DNA of 44,023 nucleotides. Origin: Planctomycetaceae bacterium. Its GTDB lineage: Bacteria > Planctomycetota > Planctomycetia > Pirellulales > Pirellulaceae. Shown piece by piece: positions 1-36,661 of the stretch. The notes below the pieces were generated by a model, which saw nothing but the letters and a program-made list of their open reading frames with translations, ran no database searches and had not been told where the DNA came from. The position numbers were made by a program, and so were the translations under genes. Each line of letters starts with the position of its first letter. The stretch's first letter is position 1. Location of the stretch: positions 1 through 44,023 of the forward strand of contig SKZY01000152.1 of NCBI GenBank assembly GCA_007127095.1. Reading direction: 5' to 3'.

Positions 1-1573
1 ACAGCAGAATCGCGACAGCCGACGATCCGATGATGATCGGCCCTTTTCGGTTCCGCCGTGTGCGGCGCGGTTTGCTCCGTCCGGTGGCGGCGGTCGGTGA
101 ATCGGAAACGGCCACTGTCGGAGTCGCCGGGGCGATGTTCGGCCCGGCAGCGGGACGCTCCGAAGGCTGACTCCCTAATCGACTGGGACGCAGGTCGGGT
201 GGGGGCAGCGGTGATCGCGTCGGTGATTGCGGGGTTACCTTCGGCTTCGCAGCGGCAGCCGGGGCGGCTCCGGCTGCCGACTTTGGCTCAGCCACCGACT
301 TCACGGCTGCCCGAGGCTTCGTCTCGATCGTCGGTTTTCTCTCAACCTTCGGTTTCGTCTCAACCTTCGGTTTTGCTTGGACCTTCGGCGTCGGCGCAGC
401 GGCTGGAACCTCGCTGGTGGACTCGGCGGGTGGTTGGCGAGTTGGGGGTGGCGGGGTTGCGGCGACATCCGGTTGAGCGGCGACTTCGGTATCGGCAACC
501 GCGCCGGGAGCGGTCGGCGGATCGTTGAGGATAGTCGCTACGGTGGCGAGTGCCTTCAGCCAATGGTCGACGTCGGGGAAGCGGGCTGTGGGGTCGGCAG
601 CCATTGCCGCGGCGAGGATTCTTGGCAGCGGAGCCCCTGCGGGTCCGGCGGCGAGCGCCGCGGCAATCTCAGCGGGCGGCGCGCCGGCTTGAGGAGTTTC
701 GCCGGTGAATGCGAAGGCGAGTGTCGCGGCGAGTGCAAAGATGTCAGATTGGACGGTAGCTTGCGACCGGCCGGCAAGCCATTCGGGGGCAGCGAACGTG
801 GCGGCTTGGCCGTCGTCGTCGAACCAGTCGAACGGCGGCGTCGGATTGCCGGGAAAGATCGGCGGGCCACCGCCGCAGCGGAGCAGATAGACCGAGCCTT
901 CATTACCGATCCAAACGCGTCCGGGCCGGATTCCGCCATGAGGTAAGGATGCTTCATGGAGTCCCCTCAGGGCGTTGCCGAGCAGTTCACCGAGTGAGAG
1001 CACGGCGGAGGGTGTCAGCCTTCCGGTACGGGCGACGAATCGATCGAGCGTCTCGCCAGCGGGCAATGCTGAGACGGCCCAGCCGCGCCAGGGGCGATCG
1101 ACATTTGCCGCTTCGACGACAGGCTGCTGCTCATCGCTGCGACCGGACGGTGGCCGCGCTTCGACCATGCTCAGCGGCTGAAGCCCATCGACCGAGACGG
1201 CGGTGTGGGGCAGCAACCAGGCGGGGTCGACGTGGGCTGGCGAACCGGTCGCTGCGGTACAGGGATAGATCAGGGCCGCGGAGCCGCTGGGTAGGTGGCG
1301 ACCGCGATACCAACGGCTCAGTGGCGGTTGTTCGCAGCGGTCGAGGATCAGGTAGTCGCCCAGCCGCAGTTCGCCACCGCGTCGGGCGAAAATCTGTTTG
1401 GCTTGGAACTTGGTCAGGACTTGACGGGCGATCAACGACTTGGCGACAGCGACGACATCGGCAGGACCTTCGGTCTGCGAATCGGCTTTGGCGCGGAGCC
1501 GATTGGCGGTGTCCGGATCGATCAATCCGAGATCGATCAACGATTGCCAAAACTCATCTGCCGCTACAGCCAT
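1..1573 (-). CDS. Membrane-anchored pseudokinase, partial (C-terminus off the left edge)
   Basis: The frame is open from an ATG at 1573 to the window edge (524 codons, no stop). Residues 1-75 resemble the helical module that precedes planctomycete Ser/Thr kinases (LIDLGLIDP, then LTKFQAKQIF and LGDYLIL). Residues 75-345 follow a protein kinase fold but lack the chemistry: there is no glycine-rich loop, no VAIK lysine, HRDxKPxN is HGGIRPGR (212-219), and DFG has become CGGG. APE (FAAPEW, about 262-264), the SDIFALA helix and DPTARF are kept. Residues 350-505 are an Ala/Pro/Lys-rich linker with PKVETK-type repeats, then a basic TRRNRKG and the start of a membrane helix (PIIIGSSAVAILL) at the edge. 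I infer a non-catalytic scaffold or sensor. GAGGA nine bases upstream supports the start. It follows purC by 68 bases on the same strand. Confidence 0.85.
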   Translation of the reverse strand, partial: MAVAADEFWQSLIDLGLIDPDTANRLRAKADSQTEGPADVVAVAKSLIARQVLTKFQAKQIFARRGGELRLGDYLILDRCEQPPLSRWYRGRHLPSGSAALIYPCTAATGSPAHVDPAWLLPHTAVSVDGLQPLSMVEARPPSGRSDEQQPVVEAANVDRPWRGWAVSALPAGETLDRFVARTGRLTPSAVLSLGELLGNALRGLHEASLPHGGIRPGRVWIGNEGSVYLLRCGGGPPIFPGNPTPPFDWFDDDGQAATFAAPEWLAGRSQATVQSDIFALAATLAFAFTGETPQAGAPPAEIAAALAAGPAGAPLPRILAAAMAADPTARFPDVDHWLKALATVATILNDPPTAPGAVADTEVAAQPDVAATPPPPTRQPPAESTSEVPAAAPTPKVQAKPKVETKPKVERKPTIETKPRAAVKSVAEPKSAAGAAPAAAAKPKVTPQSPTRSPLPPPDLRPSRLGSQPSERPAAGPNIAPATPTVAVSDSPTAATGRSKPRRTRRNRKGPIIIGSSAVAILL

Positions 1574-4792: not shown

Positions 4793-6889
4793 ATGAGCAA
4801 CCCCATCCAACCCGCTGAAGCTTCCCCGGTCGCTGCCGGATCGCCGTCTGCCGGTCGCCGGCTGCTGGTCACCAGCGCGCTGCCGTACGCCAACGGCCCG
4901 ATCCACATCGGCCACCTTGTCGAGTACATCCAGACCGACATCTGGGTGCGTTTTCAGAAGCTCCGTGGCAATCGCTGCGTCTATGTTTGCGCCGACGATA
5001 CCCATGGAACCGCGATCATGATTCGGGCTCGCAACGAGGGGCGTAGCGAGGAAGAGCTGATCACCCAGATGAGTGGGGCTCATCAGGCCGATTTTGCCGG
5101 ATTCGAGATCGAGTTCGATCACTACGGCAGTACCCACAGTGAAGAGAATCGACAGCTATGTCATGAATTTTGGCAGTCGATGCGGGCCGCCGATCTGATC
5201 AGCGAACGGGGCATTTCGCAGCTTTTCGACCCTGAAGCCGAGACCTTTTTGGCCGATCGGTTCGTCCGTGGCACCTGTCCCAAGTGCGGTAGCCTCAATC
5301 AGCCGGGCGATAATTGCGGCGTCTGCGGGGCGACGTACAGTCCGATCGACCTGATCGACCCCAAGAGCACACTCAGCGGTAGCACCCCGCTCGTCCGCGA
5401 GGCGACGCACCTGTTTGTCCGGCTCGAACGGTTGCACGATTTTCTCAGCGAGTGGATCGAATCGAGCGGAGCGTTGCAGAGCGAGACCGCGAACTACCTG
5501 AAGGGCCATTTCTTGGCCAACGAGTTGCGGGATTGGGATGTCAGCCGGCCCGCCCCCTACTTCGGTTTCGAAATCCCCGATGCCCCGGGCCATTACTGGT
5601 ATGTCTGGTTCGATGCCCCGATCGGTTATATCGCCAGCACACAACAGTGGTGCCAACGCAGTGGTGAGCGGTTGGACGATTGGTGGCGGTCGGCGGATTG
5701 CGAAGTCCATCATTTCATCGGCAAGGACATCACCTACTTTCACACCTTGTTTTGGCCGGGGATGCTCAAGACCGCCGGTTACAGCCTGCCGACGAAGGTT
5801 CACATTCACGGTTTCCTGAATGTGGGTGGTGAAAAGATGAGCAAATCGACCGGGACGTTGGTGGCGGCCGAGACCTATCTGAAGTTTGCCGACCCCTCGT
5901 TTTTGCGATACTTCTACGCAACCAAGCTGAGTTCGAAGGTCGAGGACCTCGATCTGGGTTTGGAGGAGTTCACCGACAAGATCAACAGCGATTTGATCGG
6001 CAAGGTGGTCAACCTGGCCAGCCGCGTCGGCAAGTTCGCCAGTGGGACCGGTTTAGCGACGCGATATCCCGACGACGGTGGACTGTTCGCCGCCGCCGCC
6101 GCGGCCGGTGAGGAGATCGCCGAGGCTTACGAGGCTTGTGATTTTTCGCGGGCGATGCGTCGGATCATGGAGTTGGCGGACGCCGCCAACCCGTTTGTGG
6201 AGCATGCCCGACCGTGGGAAATGAAGAAGGATCCCGCTCGGGTCGACGAATTGCGTGACGTGTGTACCGTGGCGCTGAACCTTTTCCGGCAATTGGCGAT
6301 CTACCTTGCACCGGTATTGCCCAAATTGGCGCGGCAGTGTGGCGAACTGCTCGGCGACCCCATCGTCGCTTGGAACCAGAGCCAGAGGCCGCTGTTGGGT
6401 TCGGCCGTTCAACCTTTTCGGCGGATGATGGACCGCATTCAAATCGAGGACTTGCAGAAGATGATCGAAGAGAGTCGTAGTGAGGAGCCGGCGGTTGCCG
6501 TTGGAGACGCGTCGCGATGGACCGATTCGGACCAGCCGCTACGTGACGAGCCGCTGGCGGCGGAAATCGGGATCGATGATTTCGCCAAGGTCGACCTGCG
6601 AATCGCCCGCGTGGTCGCTGCCGAGCAGGTGCCCGAAGCGAATAAGTTGCTCAAGTTGACACTCAGTCTCGGCGGCGACGAGCGTCGGCAGGTGTTCGCC
6701 GGAATCAAGGCGGCTTATCAACCCGAGGAACTGGTCGGACGGCTGGTGGTGATGGTCGCTAATCTGGCCCCACGAAAGATGCGGTTCGGGCTCAGTGAAG
6801 GGATGGTCACCGCCGCCGGCCCCGGTGGCGCTGAAGTCTTTTTGTTGGGCGTGGACGAGGGTGGCAAGCCGGGGCAGCGCGTCCACTGA
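4793..6889 (+). CDS. metG: Methionyl-tRNA synthetase with C-terminal tRNA-binding domain
   Basis: This 698-residue cytosolic enzyme charges tRNA-Met. The class I signature HIGH is at residues 38-41 ([11 protein letters not shown]) and KMSKS at 348-352. A four-cysteine zinc knuckle (C162-P-K-C165 and C175-G-V-C178) places it with the zinc-containing E. coli-type MetRS. The helical anticodon domain follows, and from about residue 590 an EMAPII/Trbp111-like OB-fold ([28 protein letters not shown]) that promotes dimerisation and tRNA binding. The length fits this class. The ATG at 4793 has no clear ribosome site; the first 20 residues are poorly conserved. A 13-bp tandem duplication covers the stop codon, and a terminator hairpin lies 130 bases downstream. 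Confidence 0.97.
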
Positions 6890-23579: not shown

Positions 23580-26441
23580 ATGAGCCTCGCATTGATCGTT
23601 CTGCTGCCGTTCCTCGGCGCCGTCCTGCCGGCGCTGATGATCCGTTCGGGCCGAGACGCTTGTGCGATCGCGACCGGTTCGATCAACACGCTGGCTTTGG
23701 CGTTGCTGCTGACGAACGTCCCGGCTGTGCTGCGTGGTGAGACGGTACGAGCCGATTGGCCGTGGATTTCGCGGCTCGGGCTTGACATTCAGTTCATGGT
23801 CGACGGGCTCGGCCTGTTGTTCGCTGGCATGATTTTGGCGATCGGTCTGCTGGTCGTCATCTACGCTCGGTTTTATCTATCGCCCCGCGATTCGATGGGT
23901 AATTTCTTCGCGTATCTATTGCTCTTTCAAGGGGCGATGACAGGGATCGTGCTGTCGAACAACGTCCTGTTGCTATTGATCTTCTGGGAAATGACGAGTT
24001 TGGCGTCGTTCCTGCTGATCGGTTTTTGGGGGCACACGGCGGCCGGCCGCCAGGGCGCTCGGATGGCGTTGACCGTGACCGGGTGTGGCGGGTTGTCGTT
24101 GATCGGTGGGATGTTGCTGATCGGTCAAATCGTCGGGTCCTACGAACTCACCGAGATCCTCGGCAGTGGCGACGTCGTCCGAGAATCGCCGTATTACGGA
24201 TGGGTCTTGGTCTTGGTGTTGATCGGCTGCTTTACCAAGAGTGCCCAGTTCCCGTTCCATTTTTGGTTACCGCATGCGATGGCGGCGCCGACTCCGGTCT
24301 CGGCTTATCTCCATTCCGCGACGATGGTCAAGGCGGGCATCTTTTTGCTGGCCCGTTTGTGGCCGATCTTATCGGGGACCGATGCCTGGTTTTTGATCGT
24401 GACCACGACCGGCCTGGTGACGATGCTCGGCGGCGCGGCGATCGCGTTGTTCAAAGACGATTTAAAGGCTTTGTTGGCCTATTCGACGGTCAGCCATCTC
24501 GGTTTGATGACGATGCTGCTCGGTTTCTCGACACCGTTGGCGGTGGTCGCTTGCATGCTGCACGTGATCAATCATGCCGCTTTCAAAGCGGCCTTATTTC
24601 TCAACACCGGGATCATCGACCACGAGACGGGGACGCGTGACATCAGCCGTCTCGGGGGCCTGTGGCGACTGATGCCGGGGACCGCGCTGGTGGCGACGGT
24701 AGCGGCGGCATCGATGGCTGGGTTGCCGCCTTTGGGCGGTTTTCTGTCGAAGGAGATGATGCTGGAGGAGGCTGCGCATACGAAGTTGTTCGGGCTGGCC
24801 GGCCTCTTGCCTGCGGTGGCGACGCTGGCGGCGATCTTTTCGTTCGCTTATTCCTTGCGGTATGTCGTGCATACTTTTGGAGGCCGCCAACGGGACGACT
24901 ACGCCCGTCCGCCGCACGACCCCGGTTTCGGGTTGTGGCTGTCGCCGGCGTTGTTGGCTTCGCTCGCCGTCTTGATCGGGTTGTTTCCTGAGACGATCAG
25001 CGGCCCGGTGGTACGATTTTCGAGTCGATCGGTGCTCGGCGCGGAACCGCCCGAGTTTCACCTTTCGCTCTGGCACGGTGTGACGCCGGCATTGTGGATG
25101 TCAGCGATCGCGGTCGGGGTCGGCTGTTTCGCGATTTTGGTTTATGGTCTGGTTGACCGGGGTTGGCGGTGGTTGCCACACCCCGAGGCGAAGCGGGCAT
25201 TCGACGCAACGGTCGCCGGTTTGACGGGAGCGTCGCGGCGTCTTTCCGACGGACTGCACAACGGTTCGCTACAGCGATATCTGTTCGTGATGATCTCGAC
25301 AGCCTGGCTGGTCGGAGCGGTCTCGTTTTTCGGCCATACCTTGGATGCTGGCACGCGGCCGACGTTGCCGGTCAATCCGGTGATCCTGGTCGGTTGGCTG
25401 TTGTTGATCGGGGCGTGTGTGCTGGTCGTCGTGTTGCAGCACGAACGCTTGCTCGCCTTGATCTTGGTGAACGTCATCGGGCTGATCGCTTCGATGTTTT
25501 TTATCTACTTTTCGGCGCCCGACCTGGCGTTGACGCAGATCTCGGTCGAGGTTGTCACGTTGATCCTGATGTTGCTGGCGCTCTATTTTCTGCCCAAGCA
25601 GACACTCCTCGAGATCACGCGTCGGGCCCAGGTTCGCAACGGGATTTTGGCGGTGTTGGTCGGGATCGGTGCGGGTGGCCTGACCTGGGCGACGACGACG
25701 CGAGATTTCACCTCGTTGTCGCAGTATTACTGGGATCAAGCGTTGCCGGGCAGTGGCGGCGCGAACGTGGTCAACGTGATTTTGGTCGACTTTCGCGGGT
25801 TTGATACGTTCGGTGAGATCATGGTATTGGGGATCTCGGCCCTGATCATTTTCGCGCTGCTAAACGGCATGACACGCGGACCGTTGGCGGTGAAACTGGC
25901 GGCCTGGAATTCGGGTGAACGGTATTCGCCCAACCGACACCCGTTGGTGATGGTTGTCGTCACGCGGTTGATGCTACCGCTCTCGCTGATGGTCGCGGCG
26001 TTCATATTCTTTCGAGGGCACAACCTGCCCGGCGGCGGTTTCATCGCCGCCCTGGTCGTCTCGATCGCCTTGGTGATGCAATACATGGCCAGCGGCTTCG
26101 GTTGGGCGGCTAAACAGGTCCGCTTCGACTACCACGCCTTGATCGGTGGCGGGGCATTGATCGCGGGTGCCACCGGGATTTCGGCGATGGTCTTGGGGTT
26201 GCCGTTCTTGACCAGTGGATTCGAACACTTTCACCTGCCGATCGTCGGTGAGTTCGAACTTTCCAGCGCATTGGCATTCGACTTGGGGGTCTTCTTGACC
26301 GTGATCGGTGGTGTGATGTTGGCGTTAGCTCAACTTTCCTTCCTCGGTGACAGCACGACCCGTGAAGCGGTCAACGAGGAGCCGATGGATTACAACCCGG
26401 CCGCCCCGATGGGCAATCGTTGGCGGAAAAGAAAGGGATAA
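23580..26441 (+). CDS. mrpA: Mrp sodium/proton antiporter subunits A and B, fused
   Basis: The 953-residue membrane protein forms the proton-translocating core of the Mrp multisubunit Na+/H+ antiporter. The first 500 residues are NuoL-like: FWEMTSLASFLLIGFW with Glu137, FTKSAQFPFHFWLPHAM with Lys220 and LHSATMVKAGIF with Lys251, the expected proton-path residues. The MrpA C-terminal extension follows (about 570-770, e.g. APDLALTQISVEVVTLILM). From about residue 780 to 930 lies an MrpB domain (TRLMLPLSLMVAAFIFF, FRGHNLPGGGFIAAL). The A-B fusion is known in proteobacterial Pha/Sha-type systems. It starts the operon; mrpC begins five bases after the stop. Confidence 0.95.
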   Translation: MSLALIVLLPFLGAVLPALMIRSGRDACAIATGSINTLALALLLTNVPAVLRGETVRADWPWISRLGLDIQFMVDGLGLLFAGMILAIGLLVVIYARFYLSPRDSMGNFFAYLLLFQGAMTGIVLSNNVLLLLIFWEMTSLASFLLIGFWGHTAAGRQGARMALTVTGCGGLSLIGGMLLIGQIVGSYELTEILGSGDVVRESPYYGWVLVLVLIGCFTKSAQFPFHFWLPHAMAAPTPVSAYLHSATMVKAGIFLLARLWPILSGTDAWFLIVTTTGLVTMLGGAAIALFKDDLKALLAYSTVSHLGLMTMLLGFSTPLAVVACMLHVINHAAFKAALFLNTGIIDHETGTRDISRLGGLWRLMPGTALVATVAAASMAGLPPLGGFLSKEMMLEEAAHTKLFGLAGLLPAVATLAAIFSFAYSLRYVVHTFGGRQRDDYARPPHDPGFGLWLSPALLASLAVLIGLFPETISGPVVRFSSRSVLGAEPPEFHLSLWHGVTPALWMSAIAVGVGCFAILVYGLVDRGWRWLPHPEAKRAFDATVAGLTGASRRLSDGLHNGSLQRYLFVMISTAWLVGAVSFFGHTLDAGTRPTLPVNPVILVGWLLLIGACVLVVVLQHERLLALILVNVIGLIASMFFIYFSAPDLALTQISVEVVTLILMLLALYFLPKQTLLEITRRAQVRNGILAVLVGIGAGGLTWATTTRDFTSLSQYYWDQALPGSGGANVVNVILVDFRGFDTFGEIMVLGISALIIFALLNGMTRGPLAVKLAAWNSGERYSPNRHPLVMVVVTRLMLPLSLMVAAFIFFRGHNLPGGGFIAALVVSIALVMQYMASGFGWAAKQVRFDYHALIGGGALIAGATGISAMVLGLPFLTSGFEHFHLPIVGEFELSSALAFDLGVFLTVIGGVMLALAQLSFLGDSTTREAVNEEPMDYNPAAPMGNRWRKRKG

Positions 26442-26446
26442 ATCGA

Positions 26447-26800
26447 ATGGAATGGTTGGTGGCGACCGCGGTCGCGGCGATGACTTCGGCAGGGATCTAT
26501 TTGACACTTTCGGCACGGACCTTCACGGTCGTCATCGGGCTGACGTTGTTGACGTACGCGACCAACCTGTTCCTGTTCACGACCGGTCGTTTGACGATCA
26601 ACCAGCCCGATATCATCAGCGATCCGCTGGCGCCCCATGCCGACCCGATCCCGCAAGCGTTGGTGTTGACGGCGATCGTGATTTCTTTCGGGGTTACCGC
26701 TCTGATCTTGGCGATGGCTGTCCGCGGCTATTTCGAAAGTGACGGCGATCATGTTGACCTGCTCGGGCCCGAAGAAACGGTGGCGCGGGGTCGCAAATGA
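26447..26800 (+). CDS. mrpC: Mrp antiporter subunit C
   Basis: This 117-residue protein with three membrane helices is a NuoK homologue of the Mrp antiporter. Seen: ATAVAAMTSAGIYLTLSA, then FTVVIGLTLLTYATNLFLFT, and DPIPQALVLTAIVISFGVTA, the characteristic NuoK-like DPxxQALVLTAIVI motif. The ATG at 26447 gives the usual length; a TTG further upstream inside mrpA is less likely. The stop overlaps the mrpD start as ATGA (26797-26800). Confidence 0.95.
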   Translation: MEWLVATAVAAMTSAGIYLTLSARTFTVVIGLTLLTYATNLFLFTTGRLTINQPDIISDPLAPHADPIPQALVLTAIVISFGVTALILAMAVRGYFESDGDHVDLLGPEETVARGRK

Positions 26801-28320
26801 ATCATTGGTTGATCCTGCCGATCTTGATCCCGGCGACGGTCGCACCGTTGTTAGCGTTAGCGGTTCGTAACGATATCGTATTGGCCCGCATTTTTTCGGT
26901 CGGATCGACCGTCCTGTTGGCCGTGATCGGAATGCTCCAGTTGGGTATGGCTGCCGACGGGACGACCCGCACATACGCCTTGGGCAATTGGCCGGCACCG
27001 TTCGGGATCGTCCTGGTACTCGACCGCCTGTCAGCGATCATGTTGGTGTTGACCGCGGTCCTCGGGTTGCTGGTGCTGCTTTATGCGATCAACGGTTGTG
27101 ACCGCCGCGGCGAGCATTTTCATCCACTGTTCCAGTTTCAACTGATGGGGCTCAACGGCGCCTTTCTGACCGGAGACCTGTTCAACCTGTTCGTCTTTTT
27201 TGAAGTTTTGTTGATCGCCTCCTACGGGTTGATGGTTCATGGAGGCGGTGCGGCCCGGATCCGAGCGGGGATTCAGTACGTGGTCGTCAACCTGGTCGGT
27301 TCCAGCATTTTCCTGCTCTCACTGGGGCTGATTTATGGTGTGACGGGAACGCTCAACATGGCTGACCTGGCGGTCAAGGTTCCCGAGGTTTTGCCCGGCG
27401 ATTCGGCGCTGCTGTACTGTGGCGCCGCCTTGTTATTGGTGGTCTTCGGGATCAAATCGGCACTCGTCCCGTTGCAGTTTTGGCTGCCGGGGACCTACGC
27501 GAACACCTCGGGGCCGGTCGCAGCGTTGTTTTCGATCATGACCAAGGTCGGGGCGTACGCGATCATCCGTGTCTACACCTTGGCATTCGGTGAATCGGCC
27601 GAGGATGGGGCGTGGTTCGCCAGTGGCGGGTTGATGGCCGCAGCTGCGGCGACGTTGGCGGTGGGGATGATCGGCGTGGTTGCCGCCCGCAGTCTGAGTC
27701 AACAGGCGAGTTTCGCGGCGCTCGCGTCGATGGGAACCCTGATGATCGCGATCGCCGGCTTCACGCCGTCGACCGAATCGGCGGCGCTCTACTACCTGGT
27801 CCATTCGACATTGGCGATCGCGGCGTTGTTTTTGTTGATCGACGCGGTCGTGATCCGCCGCGCGGGATTCGGCGACGCACTCACGACCGCCCCGCCCTTC
27901 GCCAGCCTCGGATTGATCGGCGGCCTGTTTTTTGTCACCGTGATCGCTGTGCTCGGTCTGCCGCCGTTGTCGGGTTTCGTCGGCAAATTGCTGGTCCTCG
28001 ACGCGACCGTCGGGCTCTCGGGTTGGCCACTGATCTGGGGGCTGATCCTGGTCACGACGCTGCTCGGGTTGATCGGATTTGCCAGTAGTGGAAGTCGGCT
28101 GTTTTGGAAGAGCGGGTCGCTTCCCGGGCGACTCGAACCGGTCTCCGCGGTTCCGCTCGCGTTACCGATGGTCGCGGTCGGTAGCCTATTGGCGTTGCTG
28201 ATTCTGTTGACCGGCTTTTCCGGGCCGGTAACCGCCTATTTCGATGCGACGGCCGAGCAGTTGTTCGACTCGCAACAGTATGTCGAAGCGGTTTTGGGTG
28301 AATCGAGGGGGGAGCAATGA
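26797..28320 (+). CDS. mrpD: Mrp antiporter subunit D
   Basis: The 507-residue membrane protein is the second NuoM/N-like proton-channel subunit of the Mrp complex. It keeps Glu136 (FFEVLLIASYGLM), Lys220 (GIKSALVPLQFWLPGTYA) and Lys250 (IMTKVGAYAIIRVY), the charged residues required in the family, and the APTP-like region reads NTSGPVAAL. About 14 helices are expected. Both ends overlap neighbours by ATGA, with mrpC at 26797 and mrpE at 28317, so translation is tightly coupled for subunit stoichiometry. Confidence 0.96.
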   Translation: MNHWLILPILIPATVAPLLALAVRNDIVLARIFSVGSTVLLAVIGMLQLGMAADGTTRTYALGNWPAPFGIVLVLDRLSAIMLVLTAVLGLLVLLYAINGCDRRGEHFHPLFQFQLMGLNGAFLTGDLFNLFVFFEVLLIASYGLMVHGGGAARIRAGIQYVVVNLVGSSIFLLSLGLIYGVTGTLNMADLAVKVPEVLPGDSALLYCGAALLLVVFGIKSALVPLQFWLPGTYANTSGPVAALFSIMTKVGAYAIIRVYTLAFGESAEDGAWFASGGLMAAAAATLAVGMIGVVAARSLSQQASFAALASMGTLMIAIAGFTPSTESAALYYLVHSTLAIAALFLLIDAVVIRRAGFGDALTTAPPFASLGLIGGLFFVTVIAVLGLPPLSGFVGKLLVLDATVGLSGWPLIWGLILVTTLLGLIGFASSGSRLFWKSGSLPGRLEPVSAVPLALPMVAVGSLLALLILLTGFSGPVTAYFDATAEQLFDSQQYVEAVLGESRGEQ

Positions 28321-35677: not shown

Positions 35678-36661
35678 ATGGAACCTGCCATCATCCTCTC
35701 GGGTACCGACCCCGACCTGCCACGGAATCCGCCGGTTGGCCATAAACGGTATTCCAACGTTCGCGAGATGGCCCGCGGGGCGACCGCTCAACTGCGGAGC
35801 GCCTTCGATACCGTGATCGGCCGGACCGTGGCGATCAAGTCGCTGCTGCCCGAACAATTTCGCAACCAGGTCGAACGCCGCCGACTGCTTCGCGAGGCCC
35901 GTGTCACGGCCCAATTGCAGCACCCTGGCACCGTTCCGGTCTATGACATCGGTGACGACGATTTTTGGGGCGTCTACTTCACGATGAAGCGGATTTCGGG
36001 CGAAAACCTATTCGAAGCGCTGAAACGGATCGCCCGCAAGGACGAGCCGACCACCGCGGCCTATCCGCTGTCTCGTCGACTGGAAATCGTCGCCGATACC
36101 TGTCAGGCACTCGCTTATGCCCACGCCCGTGGCGTGATTCACCGCGACGTCAAACCCGAAAACATTTGGGTCGGTAATTTCGGTGAAGTCGTACTGCTCG
36201 ATTGGGGAGTCGCCAAGGTTTGGGGCCATCCCGATGACAACGAGCCGATCAGCCGTAGTTCCTTGGCCAGCAAAACATCGGCAGCCGATGAGAGCCAACT
36301 ACAGACCTTGACCGGCCACGGACAACGTCCGGGAACGCCGCTCTACATGTCGCCCGAGCAGATCGACGGTATGCGGGGGATCGACGAACGGACCGACATT
36401 TTCAGCGTCGGCGTCGTGCTCTACGAAGCGTTGGCGATCCGCGAACCGTTTCGTGGCAGAACGATCGACGAGACGTTCGACAACATCAAACGCGGCGACG
36501 TTCCGCCACCGAGTGAACTTACCCCCAACGCCGGGATCACCGCCGAGATGGATGCCGTCGTCATGAAGGCGCTCCGCAAACGTCCCGGCGATCGCTATCA
36601 GACGATGCGAGATCTGATCCATGAGCTGAAAACGCTCGCTCGCACCGCCGACACGAATTGA
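35678..36661 (+). CDS. Serine/threonine protein kinase, soluble
   Basis: The 327-residue protein is almost only a Hanks-type kinase domain. VAIK (51-54, Lys54), Glu73, catalytic HRD (155-157), Lys159, Asn162, DWG (175-177; the family DFG, Trp being common in planctomycetes), SPE (225-227) and SVGVVLYEAL are present, so it should be active. The glycine loop is weak: ARGATAQLRSAF replaces GxGxxGxVY. There is an insert of about 30 residues in the activation segment. There is no membrane helix, so it acts in the cytosol. It is divergent from the BatA-like pair and 30 bases upstream of asnB. Confidence 0.93.
   Translation: MEPAIILSGTDPDLPRNPPVGHKRYSNVREMARGATAQLRSAFDTVIGRTVAIKSLLPEQFRNQVERRRLLREARVTAQLQHPGTVPVYDIGDDDFWGVYFTMKRISGENLFEALKRIARKDEPTTAAYPLSRRLEIVADTCQALAYAHARGVIHRDVKPENIWVGNFGEVVLLDWGVAKVWGHPDDNEPISRSSLASKTSAADESQLQTLTGHGQRPGTPLYMSPEQIDGMRGIDERTDIFSVGVVLYEALAIREPFRGRTIDETFDNIKRGDVPPPSELTPNAGITAEMDAVVMKALRKRPGDRYQTMRDLIHELKTLARTADTN

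Follow-up and report, generated by a model that had tools for sequence, protein, structure and literature searches.

The gene at the left end of the DNA analysed here encodes a membrane-anchored protein with a kinase fold from which the catalytic motifs have been lost, and it is practically certain that this protein is not a canonical kinase. Together with its relatives it appears to make up an old, newly recognised pseudokinase family that is confined to the phylum. Its members carry the dead kinase at the head of an envelope protein, and this cytoplasmic head seems to be exchangeable.

Gene, contig join and protein architecture

The window, i.e., the whole stretch of 44,023 nucleotides that was analysed, is an entire contig (C429) of a Planctomycetaceae genome assembled into 475 contigs and 95.6% complete. 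An ORF of 524 amino acids is found at positions 2-1573 on the minus strand. It is open at the window edge, and since the window is the whole contig, the edge truncating the gene is the contig end. A DNA search with the pseudokinase gene gave a 38-nt match at the end of another contig of the same genome, C454. Window positions 1-38 match C454 positions 4823-4860 with one mismatch, and the joined frame is open and encodes 1069 amino acids, the join resting on this short overlap (38 nt). The joined protein aligns with its genus relatives through the join point. A profile made from the outer region of the relatives placed the single copy of this genome on C454 as well. As the overlap is in frame and the only outer-region copy is on C454, the genome appears to contain one such gene, divided by an assembly gap. 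The features are as follows, in window coordinates:

2-1573, minus strand: first 524 codons of the pseudokinase/envelope protein gene; the remainder is on C454 (L145:3186-4859, minus strand)
1376-1573, minus strand: N-terminal helical module, residues 1-66, with the LTxFQA motif; Q57 is invariant in 46 rows
518-1375, minus strand: pseudokinase domain, residues 67-352, from the family profile, the AF2 model and fold matches
1316-1333, minus strand: degenerate glycine loop, residues 81-86, with E, P and S at the three Gly positions, by alignment
1265-1267, minus strand: Y103 at the β3 Lys position, by alignment
911-940, minus strand: HGGIRPGRVW, residues 212-221, replacing HRDxKxxN, by alignment; the family signature is HGxIRPxxVW
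872-880, minus strand: RCG, residues 232-234, replacing DFG, by alignment
782-790, minus strand: APE, residues 262-264; the Glu is kept in 66 of 66 rows
38-517, minus strand: Pro/Ala/Lys/Arg-rich linker, residues 353-512, fast-evolving and basic ahead of the membrane
2-37, minus strand: beginning of the only membrane helix (residues 513-531), which the contig end interrupts

The order in the 1069-residue protein is a helical module, the pseudokinase, a Pro/Ala/Lys linker, one membrane helix and an extracytoplasmic region of about 490 residues. The linker contains 34 Pro, 30 Ala, 13 Lys and 13 Arg among its 160 residues, and the helix reaches a maximum Kyte-Doolittle hydropathy of 2.89. The LTxFQA module recurs in L122, a kinase of this genome that looks active. 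The preliminary description of this DNA had proposed a membrane-anchored pseudokinase of planctomycete kinase architecture, in which a basic Ala/Pro/Lys linker leads to a membrane helix at the window edge. Both the N-terminal module shared with L122 and the linker and helix just described are in agreement with this, and the extension of the left flank that it had called for has supplied the outer domain.

Directly downstream of the completed gene, C454 encodes a PhoD-like phosphatase with TPR repeats (L145:1272-3095, minus strand). A second kinase-domain protein is encoded in the window itself, on C429, at 35678-36661 (plus strand), next to an asparagine synthase gene. It has a β3 Lys, HRDVKPEN, DWG and a poor glycine loop (ARGATAQL), and from these motifs it looks active. 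Two long hydrophobic ORFs at 23580-28320 (plus strand), which we take by resemblance to encode Na+/H+ antiporter (Mrp) subunits, show an excess of T over A (AT skew about -0.3) that is probably due to membrane-protein codons. Elsewhere in the genome (G000:C17:1408-3027) two kinase domains are found in one 1264-residue frame. No RNA families were found in the window.

Kinase fold and catalytic motifs

Alone, the window protein matches Pfam Pkinase below the threshold (16.9 bits, cut-off 31.7), but the family profile matches PknB at 9.8e-41, and Pkinase is matched at E ≤ 0.01 by all 46 aligned members. An AF2 model was made of window residues 1-358 with 45 relatives (the input alignment comprised 45 of the 59 pseudokinase loci and the window), and has a pLDDT of 90.8 and a pTM of 0.88. 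Its best Foldseek matches are the mycobacterial kinases PknA and PknB (E 1.2e-12), and comparison with PknB (5u94) gives a Z of 23.6 for 237 aligned residues at 3.2 Å. With an APE Glu in 66 and an αF Asp in 60 of the 66 aligned family members, this is the fold of a Hanks-type kinase.

The motifs were placed by aligning the sequence to 12 kinases of the genome that bear HRD, not by structure. In this alignment the window protein has E81, P83 and S86 at the glycine positions, Y103 at the position of the β3 Lys (P104 if the alignment slips by one), H212-G-G214 at the HRD position, R219 at that of the catalytic-loop Asn and R232-C-G234 at the DFG position, while APE (262-264) and the αF Asp277 are kept. 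The HMMER alignment of the family profile with PknB likewise puts an Arg in place of the DFG Asp. At the β3 Lys it places the family-consensus Arg, which MAFFT places one residue later, in 27 of 66 rows. The β3 Lys, the HRD Asp, the DFG Asp and the glycine loop of an active Ser/Thr kinase are all absent, and a kinase fold whose catalytic motifs are missing in a conserved manner is the mark of a bacterial pseudokinase.

The motif census covers 66 proteins; L092, L093 and L030 (frames below 900 aa) are omitted, and L016-L018, which are the same proteins as L028, L027 and L029, are counted once per pair. All three glycines are found in none of the 66 rows, the DFG Asp in none, and the β3 Lys in one (L038, the sole row with a Lys within one residue of that column). 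The HRD Asp is present in 12 rows, the catalytic-loop Asn in 13 and both together in eight. In 53 rows Lys, HRD Asp and DFG Asp are all missing, and no row has all three. An Asp is found one residue after the DFG position in 41 rows, and a Gly follows the His of the HRD position in 56, giving HGG in the window protein and HGA and other variants in its relatives. The 12 control kinases from this genome all have the Lys, the HRD Asp, the Asn and the DFG Asp, and nine of them have all three glycines. Judged from the aligned sequences, the losses of the Lys, the glycine loop and DFG are family-wide, and that of the HRD Asp is lineage-dependent, with the window's genus among the most degenerate members. 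The preliminary description had stated that the fold and the APE motif were kept while the other motifs were gone, and all of this is borne out, by the family-profile and fold matches and by the alignment with planctomycete kinases that it had proposed. Losses private to this one sequence, which had been named beforehand as grounds for giving up the idea, are not what was found.

Eight deep members (L025, L062, L065, L066, L071, L072, L075, and L024) have the HRD Asp and the Asn, without the β3 Lys and the DFG Asp, and are from their sequences candidates for residual nucleotide binding. Because of these 8 of 66, and because 27 of 66 have an Arg next to the β3 column, some relatives might bind nucleotide. 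A different kinase-like protein (L023:1999-4698, minus strand), excluded from the family alignments, has HGD for HRD, LGL for DFG and a leucine-rich-repeat-like C-terminus, and is possibly another pseudokinase line.

Between two sister species (G004 and G001; one pair, Nei-Gojobori) the pseudokinase domain has a dN of 0.057 and a dS of 0.93, i.e., a dN/dS of about 0.06 for this single pair. The corresponding dN and dS values are 0.034 and 0.60 for the N-terminal module and 0.029 and 1.01 for the outer region. Within the genus (four proteins) identity is 44-61% for module and domain, 20-35% for the linker and 70-75% for the STN-like end. By these measures purifying selection on the pseudokinase domain is strong, and the dead kinase is being kept. 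Simple truncation or recent decay of the gene was considered and is ruled out by the C454 join, the family-wide conservation and the dN/dS.

Outer region, exchange of heads and gene neighbourhood

The 490-residue outer region was modelled with AF2 for the genus relative L027 (pLDDT 91.2, pTM 0.69), using an alignment of 44 of the 49 outer regions found by motif in 80 loci. Foldseek gave no match to this model at E ≤ 0.001, so the likeness of its first domain to TP0453 rests on a second aligner. With this aligner, residues 22-330 match TP0453 (3k8j) with a Z of 10.9 over 228 aligned residues at 4.9 Å. Together with three other TP0453 entries the range is Z 9.5-10.9, and the next-ranked matches for the same residues have Z ≤ 4.5. 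The identity to TP0453 is 10-12%. TP0453 reportedly inserts into membranes by means of amphipathic helices, as Luthra is said to have described in 2011. Residues 355-473 match chain Ad of the Legionella Dot/Icm structure 7mud (Z 7.6, 87 aligned residues, 3.3 Å), which we take to be DotD with its secretin-N0-like fold, and also match the phage tail proteins 3cdd and 2z6b. At the sequence level, no PDB entry matched the outer region at E ≤ 1 and no NCBIfam family covering it was found; Pfam STN is matched at E ≤ 0.05 by two of 44 members, L027 not being one of them.

A contig scan with the single 524-aa sequence found no relatives, and one with alignment A1 found 163, of which 80 were kept. They include Rhodopirellula baltica, Rubripirellula, Stieleria, Roseimaritima, Lacipirellula, Aeoliella, and Adhaeretor. 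Searched for by itself, the pseudokinase part turned up in 11 of 60 genomes (E ≤ 1e-15), counting the genome of the window. For the outer region, the order gives matches in 210 of 296 genomes (161 of the 206 good ones), the class in 160 of 297 and a phylum-wide draw, at E ≤ 1e-5, in 20 of 294, mostly with one match per genome. In family f17 of the order it is absent from nearly all the genomes listed.

What precedes the outer region differs between lineages. Among 91 proteins 66 have the pseudokinase, one more has it interrupted by an N in the contig sequence, 16 have a short or no recognised head, five have a Zn ribbon (CxxC..CxxC) and three are cut. The five Zn-ribbon rows belong without exception to family f21 of the same class, which is taken here to be the Planctomycetales; a further f21 locus, L162, has an outer-region match by search that is concealed by an antisense ORF and is hence not among the five. 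A quick IQ-TREE tree of the outer region was made with 89 of the 91 rows, leaving out L085 and L093 (cut by contig ends), and the Zn-ribbon rows were used to root it. A single clade of 15 (SH-aLRT 97), which contains the Lacipirellulaceae, takes in all headless rows except L086, whose headlessness may be a frame or assembly problem. Each type of head clusters on the tree, with four label changes for four groups against about 21 when labels are shuffled. The head thus seems to follow lineage: a Zn ribbon in the Planctomycetales, a dead kinase in most Pirellulales and none in the clade containing the Lacipirellulaceae. In view of the low support for the deepest branchings, a single gain of the pseudokinase and two losses are taken as likely.

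In 31 of 80 loci the downstream gene on the same strand encodes a protein with a Zn ribbon, a membrane helix and an STN-like domain, referred to here as the partner. Among these loci, 17 are pseudokinase-headed, 12 headless and two cut. Pfam recognises a Zn ribbon in 16 of the 21 partner proteins of alignment A4 and STN in 12 of them, and the STN-like end of the window family matches the STN of the partner by hhalign with an E of 3.2e-6 (106 columns, probability 88). The partner profile has matches in 98 of 98 relatives, a figure that overstates orthology since the profile also matches other STN proteins and some of the matches cover the STN region alone. Six f21 loci were inspected, and a partner-like gene adjoins in three by profile (L160, L162, and L163) and in a fourth by eye (L159). 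Members of the window's genus and of the Rhodopirellula clade have the partner elsewhere; the copy in the genome of the window is at G000:C370:18032-19357, cut by a contig end. A gene for a large exported-looking protein (L164:1015-3633) adjoins this copy. It was considered as a conserved neighbour and discarded, being found at none of 10 other partner loci, and Pfam gives it no name.

Upstream, divergently transcribed neighbours are glgA (32 of 80 loci), galT (30), GH57 (21) and glutamate dehydrogenase (22). A conserved divergent glycogen cluster of glgA, galT and GH57 is found upstream in the Rhodopirellula-type clade (L031-L068). These neighbours were rejected as a clue to function; as they are divergent and vary by clade, they are read as conserved gene order. 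The other named conserved neighbours in the 80 loci are a methyltransferase and histidinol dehydrogenase. A purC-like gene lies upstream in the window and, by eye, also in the G001 and G004 loci.

Possible role and comparison with known systems

Since the head is dead across the order, is under purifying selection and can be replaced by a Zn ribbon or by nothing, it is read here as an adaptor or scaffold. The favoured view, to which we give about even weight, is that it is a non-catalytic scaffold or adaptor, comparable to EssB/YukC, on an envelope machine that is conserved. The protein would then be a single-pass inner-membrane component of a conserved planctomycete envelope module. By the positive-inside rule the pseudokinase would be in the cytoplasm, where it would perform no phosphotransfer and would bind other proteins, anchoring the module or setting its position and perhaps making it a dimer. 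The outer part would reach the periplasm. There the TP0453-like domain could engage the membrane or lipid, and the STN-like domain could dock on the partner or on another secretin-like ring. It is further proposed, tentatively and with the balance tipping somewhat against it, that the two single-pass proteins with their homologous STN-like ends form an undescribed inner-to-outer-membrane complex, one of them having a TP0453-like lipid-contacting domain and an interchangeable head for which a kinase fold was recruited in place of a zinc-binding adaptor. If this is true, the family would serve as a ready-made experiment in nature on the non-catalytic contribution of a pseudokinase, since sister groups with a dead kinase, without a head and with a Zn ribbon on a conserved outer machine can be compared.

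The protein might instead be a signal receptor, its outer domain sensing lipid or envelope stress and its pseudokinase being a phospho-regulated docking switch, as when MviN recruits FhaA. The topology is sensor-like, the outer fold has a weak match to RseB (Z 3.9), and MviN, as presented in the available text of PMC12599244, is a precedent. A long fast-evolving linker and a single membrane helix offer no obvious path for a signal, however, and the outer region is kept in headless relatives, so that we regard this reading as possible but rather unlikely. The preliminary description had suggested a scaffold or an allosteric partner for an active kinase. The first fits the family-wide catalytic loss in a fold that is kept, while the second finds no support in the gene context: no kinase is a conserved neighbour in the 80 loci, the conserved neighbour is the Zn-ribbon/STN protein, and sister groups have a Zn ribbon in place of the head or have lost it. 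Kinase folds in general are known to dimerise in this way, and the genome has 33 kinase-domain matches, at least one of them (L122) with the same N-terminal module. Heterodimerisation with an active Ser/Thr kinase of the own genome is nevertheless judged improbable.

That the domain still binds nucleotide and uses it for a different transfer reaction, in the way of SelO and SidJ, is very unlikely. While 8 of 66 rows have both HRD Asp and Asn, and the Asp one past the DFG position is found in 41, the window protein has Gly214, Arg219, Arg232 and Cys233 instead, and the 53 rows without Lys, HRD Asp and DFG Asp argue against it. A kinase decaying on its way to loss is harder still to believe in. 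The head has disappeared from one 15-row clade and perhaps a second time in L086, and the window's genus is without residues that deeper members retain; the dN/dS of about 0.06 is, however, far from the neutral expectation near 1, module and domain are better conserved in the genus than the linker, and the family occurs across the order.

The adaptor reading may be set beside several known proteins. By the second aligner the first outer domain may share the fold of the lipoprotein TP0453; in the window protein it is joined to an STN-like domain and anchored via a helix in the inner membrane. The last outer domain may likewise be related to secretin N-terminal/STN domains, from its fold match and its profile match to the STN of the partner; the window family lacks a secretin barrel, and Pfam sees STN in two of 44 members. 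In L122 the same N-terminal LTxxQA module stands ahead of a kinase domain that, unlike that of the window protein, has kept most of the glycine loop, the β3 Lys, HRD and a DMG motif. In MviN the pseudokinase head follows a lipid-flippase membrane region. As described in the text available to us, MviN (mycobacteria, ActPs3) is likewise a pseudokinase in a membrane protein that acts as a scaffold and not as an enzyme (PMC12599244). The window protein by comparison has one helix after the head, and its catalytic residues are replaced by other letters.

Seven bacterial pseudokinase families have been described, ActPs1-3, GLW, CP1, DYD, and DLHK (O'Boyle et al., 2025; PMC12599244), and in the available text they have, like the window protein, a PknB-related fold with the catalytic motifs lost. 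GLW pseudokinases also have a C-terminal membrane helix, but in these the GLW motif replaces HRD, while the window protein has HGG. In the same text 'planctomyc' has no occurrence, and none of the seven families is described there from planctomycetes. The literature searches, which lay outside the atlas of 42 families of kinases that PMC12599244 cites, gave no account of this planctomycete pseudokinase family. With the present proteins, the short list of bacterial pseudokinases gains a family confined to one phylum. They also draw attention to an envelope protein that is common, is usually encoded once per genome and is almost missed by Pfam, in a phylum with a little-understood cell envelope.

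The nearest characterised analogue, and the membrane pseudokinase that has been studied best, is EssB/YukC, which belongs to type VIIb secretion in Firmicutes. It is described as a non-catalytic hub that contacts all components of the secretion system and does not bind ATP (PMC9600267; PMC12599244). Like the window protein, it has a pseudokinase in the cytoplasm, in which every catalytic motif is degraded, followed by one membrane helix and an extracellular part; for the window protein the helix is from hydropathy and the topology is predicted. The window family differs in its 160-residue Pro/Ala linker, its outer pair of TP0453-like and STN-like domains and its phylum. Type VII loci contain an EssC-like ATPase and small WXG100 proteins; no type VII genes were recognised among the named conserved neighbours in the 80 loci, where ORFs of at least 90 aa were called. 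By both context and outer domain, the window protein is not a member of the EssB/YukC system. Its head would rather act as an adaptor particular to its lineage, set on an outer machine that is conserved, with a function comparable to that of the EssB/YukC pseudokinase.
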